Below, one piece after another: positions 3,915 to 23,220 of a DNA stretch of 64,000 nucleotides. The DNA is taken from assembly GCA_002104895.1 (NCBI GenBank), contig MCFG01000303.1:22718-86717 (forward strand). The letters run 5' to 3'. The DNA is from Anaeromyces robustus. Its lineage: Eukaryota > Neocallimastigomycota > Neocallimastigomycetes > Neocallimastigales > Neocallimastigaceae. The translations under genes and the position numbers were made by a program. Position 1 is the stretch's first letter; every line of letters begins with the position of its first letter. Under the pieces are notes generated by a model. The model saw only the letters and a program-made list of their open reading frames with translations. It made no database searches and had not been told where the DNA came from.

Positions 3915-6900
3915 ATGATTAATTTTAAACACATAGGGTAATAATAATAATAATAATAATAATAATAATAATAATAATAATAATAATAATAATAATAATA
4001 ATAATAATAATAATAATAATAATAATAATAATAATAGTTAATTAAAAACCTGCTTTAATTATTAAAATTTATTATAAACTATTTATAATTAGACTACTAT
4101 TTTTAGTAGGACTATTAATTACATATGGAACCGCGTCTTCAAGTATGTTCTAGAATGGATAAATATATAAAAAATTAAAAAATTTTGATTATCATTTTTA
4201 TTTAATATAGGTTAATTATATAATATTTAGGTGATATTCCTAAAGTATGTCGTTTTAAAACAACTAGCAATTATCAAGTATTAGAAGTTGAAACAAGTAC
4301 AGATTTGAATCCTATTGAATGTAAGATATAATTTATAAAAAACTATATATATATATTTTATAATATTAAATATTAATATATTTCTTAATAGGCAAAACGG
4401 GCTATCATTTATTGGATTCAGAATTAAAATCAATAACTGAAGAAAAACAAGGTATACTTTATAAATTAGAAAAAATTAATGATGATTTAAAGTGTATTGG
4501 TGAAATATATAGAAATCCAATTCCCGGTTATTACATGGTAGCAGGTCAAAAGGATAAATTTATACATTGTGATAATAATAATTGTAAGTATATAGATACT
4601 CCAACAGAGACATGCTCAAATAGTAATATTGGTAAATTAGTTATCTATAATGAAGAGAATGAAGAAGAAATTAATGAACAAAACATTGAAGAAAATTTAT
4701 ATGGTCTTTGTCTTGGTGTATTTAAAGAAAATCCAGCAATATTAAAATTTGAAAATAATAACGAAAGTTACCTTGTTAAAAGAGGTGGTCCAGTATTTAA
4801 CTTTGATATAACTACTGACTATTTTGTTGTTAAAGCTCAAGAAGATAGAATATTATTTGATGATTCTTTTTCAAGAAAAAGTAATATTTAGTTTTTTTTT
4901 TTCATTTTATTTGAATTTTATAAATATAAATATAAATATAAATATAAATATAAATATAAATATAAATATAAATATAAATATAAATATAAATATAAATATA
5001 AATATAAATATAAATATAAATATAAATATAAATATAAATATAAATATAAATATAAATATAAATATAAATATAAATATAAATATAAATATAAATATAAATA
5101 TAAATATAAATATAAATATAAATATAAATATAAATATAAATATAAATATAAATATAAATATAAATATAAATACAAACATAAATATAAATATAAATATAAA
5201 TATAAATATAAATATAAATATAAATATAAATATAAATCATAAATCATAAATATAAATAATAAATATAAAAATAAAACATAAACTTATATACATAAATATA
5301 ATATTATTTATAATATAATATGTTATGAATTTTTATCTATAGAAAATCAAGTTGCTCTTATTAATGCAAAATTAGTTACTAGATTTGAGGAATTCTGTAA
5401 AAGTGATAAGAGTTCTGGTAAATATTATACTTGTATGAACGGAAAATGTATTTCCTTTGATAAAATTACTTATGAACGAGATACAACTTCTCTTATAAAA
5501 GATAATTGTGAATTTACTGTTATAAAGGCAGAAACAGAATATGATGATAATGAATGCTTTATAACAACTGGTAAAACATGTAATGAGAATAATTATGGTT
5601 ATCATTTAGGTACGGATGATGAAGGTTTAAAATATCTTGTTTTTTATAATAGTACTTGTTCTGTTGTTGATAATCCAGCAGTTGGTTATTATAAAAATGC
5701 TATTAACATTTATGAAAATGAAGGTAAAATCTTAGAAGATGGTTACAATTCGATTATTGAATGTAAAAAAATTAATAATGGTGTTAGTTGTCAATTAATT
5801 AATCCTCCCAACACTGAAGGTAATACATGTGATGTCAACAATTCTGGTGAATTAATTGATACTAATTTTAATGTTATATTATGTCTTGATATTGATATTC
5901 CTCAAAGGTTTGCTGATAAAGGAAAAGCATTTGTCATTGGTACTCCTGGTAGTATTTTTGGTATTGAAAATTATTTCCCATTAAATGTCACAAGAAAATA
6001 TATGATTTATGATGAGGAATTTTCAGGATCAGGTATTCTTGATAATGGTGGAAGAGTAAACTGTAATGAGAATCATTATTGTGAAAGTATGCCTTTTAGA
6101 ATATTTTTTTAAAAAATTTTACAAATACTATTCTTATTATTATTTATTAAACAAACAAAAAAAAATTAATTTTTAATTTATATTATAATAAAATATAGAA
6201 ACCGAATGTAAAATTAAAGTAAAATCTTCATTAGATTCAAATCTTAACATTTTTAATTATATTCCGTCATTAGAAAATTGTAATTATTATAAAAATTAAT
6301 TAATAGTTTTATAATAAAATCATTATATTATTTTAATTAAAAAATAATTTTTTTTTTGTATCAATAATAAATATAAATAAATAAGGTGATAGAAAAGATA
6401 ACGGATTTTATTTTAACGATGAAAAAGGAAATACTGTAAAGGATAAAACAAAAAATGGTTATATAATTAAATATGATGCTAATAATGCTTCAAATAGACT
6501 TGTATTATATTCTAATCAACCAGGATATTACAAAAATCAAGATAAAGTTACTCAACTAGATTATCCATATATAAAATGTAAGCAAATAAAGGAATGTTTA
6601 AATTCTAATCCAACTTGTGATAATTCTAAATTAGTTACAAAATTAGTATGTAATTTATTGGAAAAACCAACTTCTACATGTATTACTGGTGAATTAGTAG
6701 AAGTTATCAAAGAAGATGAGACAACTAGTATTGAACTTTGTGTTGATGGTACAAATTCAGTTTCTATTCCGTTTTCTAATGAGAAAAAAATATTTGGATT
6801 ATATGCTAATTTAGATTTTGATGAATCTATTAACTATTATGCAATTACTGTTGACACGGACAAAATAATAATAGATGATATTAAGAATGATGGAAAATTT

Positions 6901-21900: not shown

Positions 21901-23220
21901 AAAGTAGGTAATTGTTACATTATTCAACCTGAAGGAATTAAGTATTTTGCTGATTATACCACAATGAATGAAGATGAATTTTATGTTATTAAGTATAATG
22001 GACTGAAAAAAGATTTAAGAAAACGTTATACTAGAGTATTTGATGATGATAATAATGATGATATTAGTGATGAAAATTTCTATATTCAAAAAGAAGGTAA
22101 TAAAATGGATTATTCAAAAAATGACAATACCAATGACAGATATGTTTATATAAAGTATGGCAATAATAATTTAAGAAAACGTGATGAAGATGAAGAAGAG
22201 GATAGTGGATTTGAATATATTACAAAAGAAGGTATATATAAATTAGATGATGGTAGTTATGCTGAATGTGAATATAATAATAATGATGATTTGAAATGTC
22301 ATACTGTTGAAAATGAAGGAGTTACTAAAACTATTGATGATGAATTGATTATATGTAAAAAGAATGATGATAATAAAATTGAATGTACTCAAGCTGTACA
22401 AGGAGGATATTATATAATTAATGATGAATTATTAGAATGTGAGCCAAATGAAGATGGAGATCAATTAGTTTGTACAAAAATGAATAAAGAAGGTTATTTC
22501 CTTGCTGAACCAGGTGAAATTCTTTATCAATGTGTAGAAAAAGAAGATGAAAGTGATGAAGATGAATATGACGATGAAGATGAAAGTGATGAATATGAAG
22601 ATGAAACTATACCATCTGGAGGAAAAGATGATAATAATGAAGGTGAAGATGATAGTATGGAAACTAGTATGATTGCAAATGATGAAGATGATGGTGATGA
22701 AGATGATGTTATACCATTAACTGCAGATTCAGGATATGTTATGCCAACTGAAACACCATATGATAATTCACCAATGAAAGTTGATTGTTCTGTAGTAGTT
22801 TGCTCTGACGAACCAATTATATTTGAAGATGAAGGTAAAATTAAGCAAATGTATGTATGTAAAAATGTTTATGAAGATGATGAAACAAAGGAAGAAGAAA
22901 AGAAATGGATATCTGAAACATGTAGTAGTGGTAATTATATTAAGATTAATGATGGATATTATAAATGTGAAGATGAAAAAGAGAGTTTAGATGAAGAATA
23001 TATTGAAAAGCCAAATGAAAGTCATACTACGAGTGTTAATACATATACAGAAGAAAAAACATCTACAAATACTCCTTCATCCACTGATGATTCACAATCA
23101 CAATCACCAACTAATACAGTACCACCAGATAGCAGTGCGCAATCCTTCTTTAATAGATTACCATCTCTTACATTCTATATCATATTGTTTATTATTGCAT
23201 TATTAATTCAATACAATTAG
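3915..23220 (+). CDS. Giant cellulosome scaffoldin-like protein (ScaA-type), about 6103 residues
   Basis: Seven exons keep phase throughout: 3915-3937, 4093-4142, 4231-4320, 4392-4880, 5343-6086, 6199-6279 and 6386-23220 (18312 nt including TAA). The ATG at 3915 is chosen because exons 1-2 then encode a classic signal peptide, [20 protein letters not shown], ending near TASSS; exon 2 has no in-frame ATG of its own. The rest is a long chain of Cys-containing repeats, each built around GYY or GWY (roughly thirty GYY by eye), a following LI-x-C and a further Cys. Early repeats are short, about 25-60 residues; later ones are longer and include GD-x-CY and YYLINN segments. Near the end come two LRKR dibasic sites (about residues 5705 and 5755), an Asp/Glu-rich stretch (about 5875-5930), a Ser/Thr linker and a 20-residue hydrophobic tail. 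From what I recall, fungal scaffoldins are very large, secreted, repeat-rich, membrane-anchored proteins that bind dockerins of plant-wall enzymes; architecture and size fit. Whether each GYY unit binds a dockerin is inference. Confidence 0.85.
3938..4092 (+). other. Intron 1 of the scaffoldin gene, filled by an (AAT)n microsatellite
   Basis: The donor GTAATA at 3938 runs straight into about 30 AAT units (to about 4035), and the acceptor AG is at 4091-4092. The intron splits the signal peptide between a 23-nt first exon and a 50-nt second exon. The join creates a Gly codon (GG plus A) and gives an uninterrupted hydrophobic leader. Confidence 0.7.
4917..5240. repeat. (AAATAT)n hexanucleotide microsatellite, about 53 copies, in scaffoldin intron 4
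   Basis: The array is nearly perfect, interrupted only by ACAAAC around 5170-5178 and degenerate at its right edge. It lies between the donor at 4881 and the acceptor AG at 5341-5342. All three frames of both strands give periodic open frames (for example Ile-Asn or Ile-Tyr runs) that are not genes. Confidence 0.95.
6386..22000 (+). repeat. Coding tandem Cys/GYY repeat region of the scaffoldin
   Basis: The protein repeats are diverged in DNA, so no exact DNA repeat is visible, but the pattern recurs throughout: GYY or GWY plus Asn/Ser/Gly, then LI-x-C, then Cys, then Pro or Asn-Gly leading into the next GYY. A second, longer unit (about 90-100 residues) has Cys, GEL or similar, KLC, then FPG or FPD, then LI-x-I, then GYY. 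From about 16600 onward the typical unit becomes GD-x-CY, YYLINN-x-LY, GYY-(I/F)-x-(D/N) with Cys pairs. Confidence 0.75.
22540..23217 (+). other. C-terminal acidic, Ser/Thr-rich and hydrophobic anchor segment of the scaffoldin
   Basis: This part encodes an Asp/Glu-rich tract (around 22540-22710), a last Cys-containing unit, a Thr/Ser/Pro-rich linker (around 23020-23130) and a final hydrophobic run ending LLIQYN. A hydrophobic C-terminus with almost nothing after it suggests GPI attachment or a tail anchor; a small-residue site (SSAQS) lies about 12 residues before it. This would hold the scaffoldin at the fungal surface. Confidence 0.6.

Follow-up and report, generated by a model that had tools for sequence, protein, structure and literature searches.

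What kind of protein is encoded by the very long coding region in this stretch of DNA, and how might such a protein work? The stretch analysed (the window; 64,000 nucleotides, contig C228:22718-86717 of an Anaeromyces robustus genome of 70,169,043 bases in 769 contigs) had been interpreted in an initial annotation, made from the letters alone, as carrying the gene of a scaffoldin like ScaA, the platform for dockerin-bearing enzymes in anaerobic gut fungi. We find that the locus likely encodes a ScaA-type fungal cellulosome scaffoldin, likened to ScaA by means of the published descriptions, and that the annotation was very probably right in kind, i.e., that the protein is a scaffoldin of an anaerobic gut fungus. 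The giant fungal scaffoldin as a kind is already known, and what is added here is a full-length twin, a two-part build, which is put forward tentatively, and the module boundaries. By sequence, the protein is composed of a signal-peptide-like leader, about 25 short units, about ten composite modules, an acidic linker, a Ser/Thr stalk and a hydrophobic tail, and it has a paralogue that is built alike.

The gene model and a full-length paralogue

The seven exons on the forward strand (Table 1) join in frame without an internal stop and yield a protein of 6,103 residues, 695 kDa and 233 cysteines. All six predicted introns are of the GT...AG type, and the open frame of exon 7 runs for 5,611 codons, compared with a maximum of 113 among 100 shuffles of the same exon. 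With the halves of exon 7 as queries, one full-length relative was found in the genome, on contig C205. Over 5,878 aligned residues, this paralogue is 43.5% identical to the window protein (by BLAST, 39.7% over 6,426 columns), and 213 of the 233 cysteines of the window protein align with cysteines of the paralogue. The six introns of the two genes lie in the same alignment columns and in the same phases (2,1,1,1,1,1), and the first exon is exactly 23 nt long in both. The exon boundaries were placed manually while the two genes were compared, and the agreement of six out of six introns is strong consistency, not a blind prediction. The paralogue is the strongest support for the gene model and for the reality of the leader exons. 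In blocks of 250 alignment columns, the identity between the two proteins is 37-59% from column 3750 onwards and 33-48% before it. Within the genome, only this giant pair was found to have the exon-5 domain and the C-terminal tail.

The annotation had thus proposed the right architecture with its seven in-phase exons and a protein of about 6100 residues, as the 6,103-residue frame and the identical introns of the paralogue attest. It had also expected automated gene calls to start near 4412 or 6658, and this part did not hold. Both positions are TTG codons, so an ATG-based gene caller would not begin at either; the two frames have their first ATG at 4535 and 7108, respectively. In any case, the leader exons of 23 and 50 nt have to be modelled for the secretion signal to be recovered.

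Two further observations were made on the gene. Intron 4 consists mostly of an array of about 63 copies of the hexamer TATAAA (4919-5301) and is 462 nt long in the window gene versus 214 nt in the paralogue. The G-over-C skew on the coding strand is approximately 0.3 across most of exon 7.

Table 1. Positions of the putative scaffoldin gene, its parts, its paralogue and the neighbouring frames (window coordinates unless a contig is named).
Feature	Position	Strand	Remarks
Exon 1	3915..3937	+	23 nt; contains start codon and beginning of signal peptide; 23 nt in paralogue also
Exon 2	4093..4142	+	50 nt; remainder of signal peptide; paralogue exon 2 is 56 nt, and a similarly hydrophobic leader spans the same intron there
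Exon 3	4231..4320	+	90 nt
Exon 4	4392..4880	+	489 nt; N-terminal region, contains a single short Cys unit at residues 100-121
Exon 5	5343..6086	+	744 nt; N-terminal domain, in the genome only in window gene and paralogue, 49% identity
Exon 6	6199..6279	+	81 nt
Exon 7	6386..23220	+	16,835 nt including stop; repeat region, linker, stalk and tail
Densest short-Cys-unit tract	8461..9375	+	residues 1185-1489, inside the part matching the short-unit protein on C634
Composite modules, about 180-220 residues each	15997..21915	+	residues 3697-5669, ten profile hits
Acidic linker	22012..22758	+	starts with DLRKR, conserved in paralogue; limits approximate
Ser/Thr-rich stalk	23017..23142	+	limits approximate
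Hydrophobic C-terminal tail	23158..23217	+	flush with C terminus; GPI-signal-like by eye
Paralogue gene	C205:63476-43969	-	seven exons, 6,213 residues
Frame with BspA-type leucine-rich repeat over cut-off	24603-25682	-	signal-like leader; weak transglutaminase-core match below cut-off; adjoins scaffoldin gene
Frame with hydrophobic, apparently multi-pass first half	29037-30647	-	Asn-rich tail; nothing above cut-off in Pfam
Open frame encoding a CotH kinase domain plus two fungal dockerins	55440..57053	+	candidate cargo protein, about 32 kb from scaffoldin gene
Long frame encoding endonuclease and reverse transcriptase domains	58038-62318	+	non-LTR (long terminal repeat) retrotransposon

Short two-cysteine units and their relatives in the genome

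The short repeats, most of them in the N-terminal half of the protein, follow the pattern G-[YWF]-Y...[LI]-I-x-C-x(n)-C. A regular expression for this unit found 21 copies in the window protein, versus 14 in the paralogue, while shuffles of the window protein gave 0.11 matches on average and 2 at most (n=200), so the repeat chemistry that had been read from the letters (GYY/GWY, LI-x-C and an extra Cys) is real. A profile at E 0.01 detected 26 units in the window protein and 24 in the paralogue; the 22 control sequences had none at this threshold and 2 at E 0.1. Of those 26, 21 lie in the N-terminal half and 25 before residue 3740. In line with this unit, a spacing of 4-10 residues to the next cysteine occurs 85 times (shuffle mean 49, maximum 64, n=500), and the motif hydrophobic-hydrophobic-x-Cys 70 times (shuffle mean 23, maximum 37).

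Similar units are common to other repeat proteins of the genome, among them those on contigs C634 and C229. The open frame on C634 encodes 1,193 residues, which open with a hydrophobic leader and continue with many GYYIN...LIYCDEN..C units. The window protein matches it at E 3e-31 (residues 701-1654, 25% identity), and the reverse search finds the window gene at E 2.7e-11. Short units were counted 28 times in C634, 88 and 12 times in two frames on C229 and 14 times in the examined part of C286. We take C634, C229 and like proteins, from their motif, to be scaffoldins as well. When C634 was used as query, 52 matches at E 0.001 were obtained on 17 contigs, including its own and that of the window. 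The scaffoldins published for A. robustus number 26 or 32 in the accessible parts of PMC8665504 and PMC12341934, and the count of matches is of the same order.

C-terminal composite modules

The second half of the protein is built of larger modules, which were followed with two profiles. The strict profile, built from seven C-terminal modules of the window protein alone and therefore the stricter test, recovers the modules of the paralogue at up to 1e-34, with one match (0.026) among the controls. At E 0.01 it gave no match in C634 or C229, and C286 had one edge match (E 0.0096). In a protein search of the genome, the C-terminal half as query likewise found only the giant pair at E 1e-5. The looser, iterated profile, based on both proteins, found 25 copies in the window protein (13 of them starting before residue 3300) and 28 in the paralogue; these numbers come from the two proteins on which the profile was trained and are not independent. 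Among the controls (2 reversed, 20 shuffled), this profile had three matches with E values up to 1, the strongest at 0.027. It also matched seven times in C634 (best 9.7e-8), seven times in C286 (4.8e-8) and eight times in a C229 frame (1.6e-6). These looser matches count against a sharp border between short units and modules. On the strict profile and the protein search, the giant pair thus seems to share its outer half with the wider repeat family, while the inner half is largely its own.

No known domain was recognised in either part. Exon 7, which encodes 5,611 of the 6,103 residues, had no Pfam match over the cut-off (one weak match, E 0.036) and no match in NCBIfam, and no PDB sequence matched the 4,538 of its 5,611 residues that were searched. 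A cohesin was not found in exon 7 with Pfam even at E up to 1. With the C-terminal module pair as query, scans of prokaryote genomes and of IMG/VR, either of which may omit records very near to the genome of the window, gave 101 and 180 pattern matches, respectively, and no relative; the short units lay outside the prokaryote scan. Homology to bacterial cellulosome proteins is accordingly absent for exon 7 and for the C-terminal module pair as searched.

A structural model of residues 1156-1320 was all-beta with a mean pLDDT of 72.4 (five models, 45.7-72.4), and one C-terminal module was modelled as mostly beta with a mean pLDDT of 75.9 (models 72.5-75.9). The folds of the short-unit tract and of the module are therefore predicted to be mostly beta, with models of moderate confidence. 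Among the fold matches listed from the PDB (the best 50 of 123 for the short-unit model and the best 50 of 383 for the module model), none reached E 0.001 and none was a cohesin. The top match of the module among those listed was a CROP domain, which was not significant (E 0.04, probability 0.12). CROP and choline-binding-like repeats are short beta repeats rich in aromatic residues and glycine, and in this they resemble the repeats described here. However, they gave no Pfam match in exon 7, and the units of the window protein have two cysteines.

Leader, tail and possible processing

The putative signal peptide, 24 residues long, is divided between exons 1 and 2. When the window protein is scanned in 15-residue segments, the 12 with the highest hydrophobicity all lie in this leader or in the C-terminal tail, which agrees with the split signal peptide and hydrophobic tail of the initial annotation; in the paralogue, one internal segment at residue 5270 is among the 12. 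Hydrophobic maxima at the two ends are as expected for a surface protein that has been read correctly from end to end. Judged by hydropathy alone, the protein would have a secretion signal and a C-terminal membrane attachment.

The scaffoldin anchor is described as transmembrane in the accessible text of PMC6690862. In both paralogues, the tail comes after a Ser/Thr-rich stretch and lacks a basic cytoplasmic end, and the transamidase subunits Gpi16 and Gaa1 are both encoded in the genome. Perhaps the tail is more readily understood as a signal for a glycosylphosphatidylinositol (GPI) anchor than as a membrane-spanning helix. Our literature search found no report joining GPI anchor, scaffoldin and Neocallimastix.

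Two KR sites are conserved in the paralogue, AKRD at residue 5003 (around 19915) and DLRKR at residue 5705 (around 22021), the latter at the junction between the end of the modules and the start of the acidic linker. Kex2-type processing was considered and rejected as a general feature: KR occurs 10 times versus 7.7 expected, and two of the ten are conserved, much like other arginine dipeptides. The conserved DLRKR ahead of the acidic linker may serve as the sole remaining lead in this direction.

Comparison with known scaffoldins

The surroundings of the gene agree with a cellulosome. In the genome, 150 of 150 scored matches to CBM_10, the fungal dockerin, exceeded the curated cut-off, whereas none was found in 14 control genomes; the 150 are a lower bound, with 683 first-look candidates. 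The many dockerins, together with the GC content of the window (18%), point to an anaerobic gut fungus (Neocallimastigomycota) as the host. According to the accessible part of PMC8262932, a conserved group of scaffoldins exceeds 500 kDa, is rich in repeats, lacks bacterial homology and binds dockerin with a KD of 994 nM, and dockerins have been seen on rhizoids and zoospores. The window protein, at 695 kDa and with repeats far beyond those of shuffles, falls within this description. As far as PMC8262932 and PMC6690862 could be consulted, ScaA and related scaffoldins share with it the organism group, the size above 500 kDa, the abundance of repeats, the secretion signal, the C-terminal hydrophobic anchor, the lack of a recognised bacterial cohesin domain and the company of many dockerin proteins. 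Unlike in these partial descriptions of ScaA, the tail of the window protein looks GPI-like rather than membrane-spanning, and two full-size paralogues occur in one genome. Either, both or neither of the two equally long paralogues may be the ScaA orthologue.

The support for the scaffoldin type is indirect and comes from the dockerin-rich genome, the occurrence of the units in a many-locus Cys-repeat family, the size and the lack of recognisable domains. The interpretation in the annotation is partly supported: its gene model, size, secretion signal, tail and repeat chemistry stand, ScaA is a candidate name, dockerin binding is a presumed function, and the remark on automated starts has to be given up. 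The proteins on C634 and C229 share the GYY...LI-x-C...C unit with the window protein; in contrast to it, their examined frames consist largely of short units and have no strict C-terminal module matches at E 0.01. Bacterial cellulosome scaffoldins would work alike, as repeated docking sites on a cell-attached chain, but they carry cohesins, of which exon 7 has none in Pfam and none among the fold matches listed. Our literature search found no report joining a size of 700 kDa with scaffoldin and anaerobic fungi and nothing joining fungal scaffoldin, cysteine and dockerin, and the accessible parts of PMC10978972, PMC12484212, PMC7609409, PMC12063362, PMC5737911, PMC12120621 and PMC12421816 contain no scaffoldin unit sequence for comparison.

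Proposed function and alternative explanations

If the protein is a scaffoldin, it would be secreted, and its C terminus would tether it to the cell surface, perhaps by means of a GPI anchor and not a membrane-spanning helix. The C-terminal modules would act mostly as a stalk, so that the short-unit half would face outwards. There, the short units could serve as binding sites for tandem dockerins, both those of enzymes and those of CotH-dockerin proteins like the one encoded further downstream in the window, and dockerin-bearing enzymes would thereby be gathered at the plant surface. A bolder possibility is a two-part build, in which the short two-cysteine units form an outer array and are the long-sought fungal cohesin, carried on a long inner stalk of modules that is nearly private to the giant pair and GPI-linked to the surface. 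We regard this division as possible, though doubtful, and our already low confidence in it was reduced slightly, since matches to the looser module profile occur in the N-terminal half and in other repeat proteins as well. The short-unit part and the module part may grade into each other. If the division is true, the two paralogues would be cell-attached master scaffolds and the short-unit proteins free ones. The full gene model and the full-length paralogue provide boundaries of units and modules, and with these the question of dockerin binding can be addressed with short recombinant fragments.

Two observations weigh against the scaffoldin interpretation. In the accessible part of PMC8262932, an antibody against a fragment of P. 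finnis ScaA gave no specific cell staining and revealed no protein in a cellulosome blot, so the surface placement of ScaA itself is not established in that study. Moreover, the strict profile detects hardly any C-terminal modules in the other repeat proteins that were examined, and these modules, nearly private to the pair, leave only part of the window protein typical of the repeat family. The gene could, for this reason, encode a giant surface repeat protein, such as an adhesin or a wall protein, that shares the scaffoldin units without carrying dockerin enzymes and leaves the binding to proteins of the C634 and C229 types. The near-confinement of the modules to the giant pair, both by the strict profile and by protein search, would fit such a protein, as would the denser short-unit arrays elsewhere in the genome (88 in C229 and 28 in C634), and a Ser/Thr stalk with a hydrophobic tail would suit a wall protein. 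Nevertheless, the window protein still has about 25 short units, and the large scaffoldins, as described in the accessible literature, match it in size. We consider this explanation unlikely.

Another arrangement within the scaffoldin interpretation would make the composite modules the dockerin-binding cohesins and the short units mere spacers. The modules recur, are of large size and show somewhat higher conservation from one paralogue to the other (37-59% versus 33-48% in blocks), with profile matches to 1e-34 in the paralogue. On the other hand, the strict module profile has no match in C634 or C229 and a single marginal one in C286, while the short units are widespread, and the arrangement therefore seems improbable to us. 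It is more improbable by far that the gene is mis-assembled or that its leader exons are chance joins. The very AT-rich leader, the introns of 3-12% GC, the boundaries set by hand and the microsatellites in introns 1 and 4 would all allow for such an error, but every exon, phase and intron column is repeated in the paralogue. In addition, tandem-repeat rows inside exon 7 span at most 57 bases, which makes a collapse or expansion of near-identical repeats unlikely. The preferred interpretation thus remains that of a ScaA-type scaffoldin.

Neighbouring frames

The remaining frames of the window are listed in Table 1. Proteins with CotH and dockerins have been reported in anaerobic gut fungi, according to the accessible part of PMC10978972, and the CotH-dockerin frame of the window may be of this kind. 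The GC content is about 33% at 55001-57000, where this frame lies, versus about 9% at 53001-55000. A frame similar to the retrotransposon of the window was seen, by eye, downstream of the paralogue on C205.

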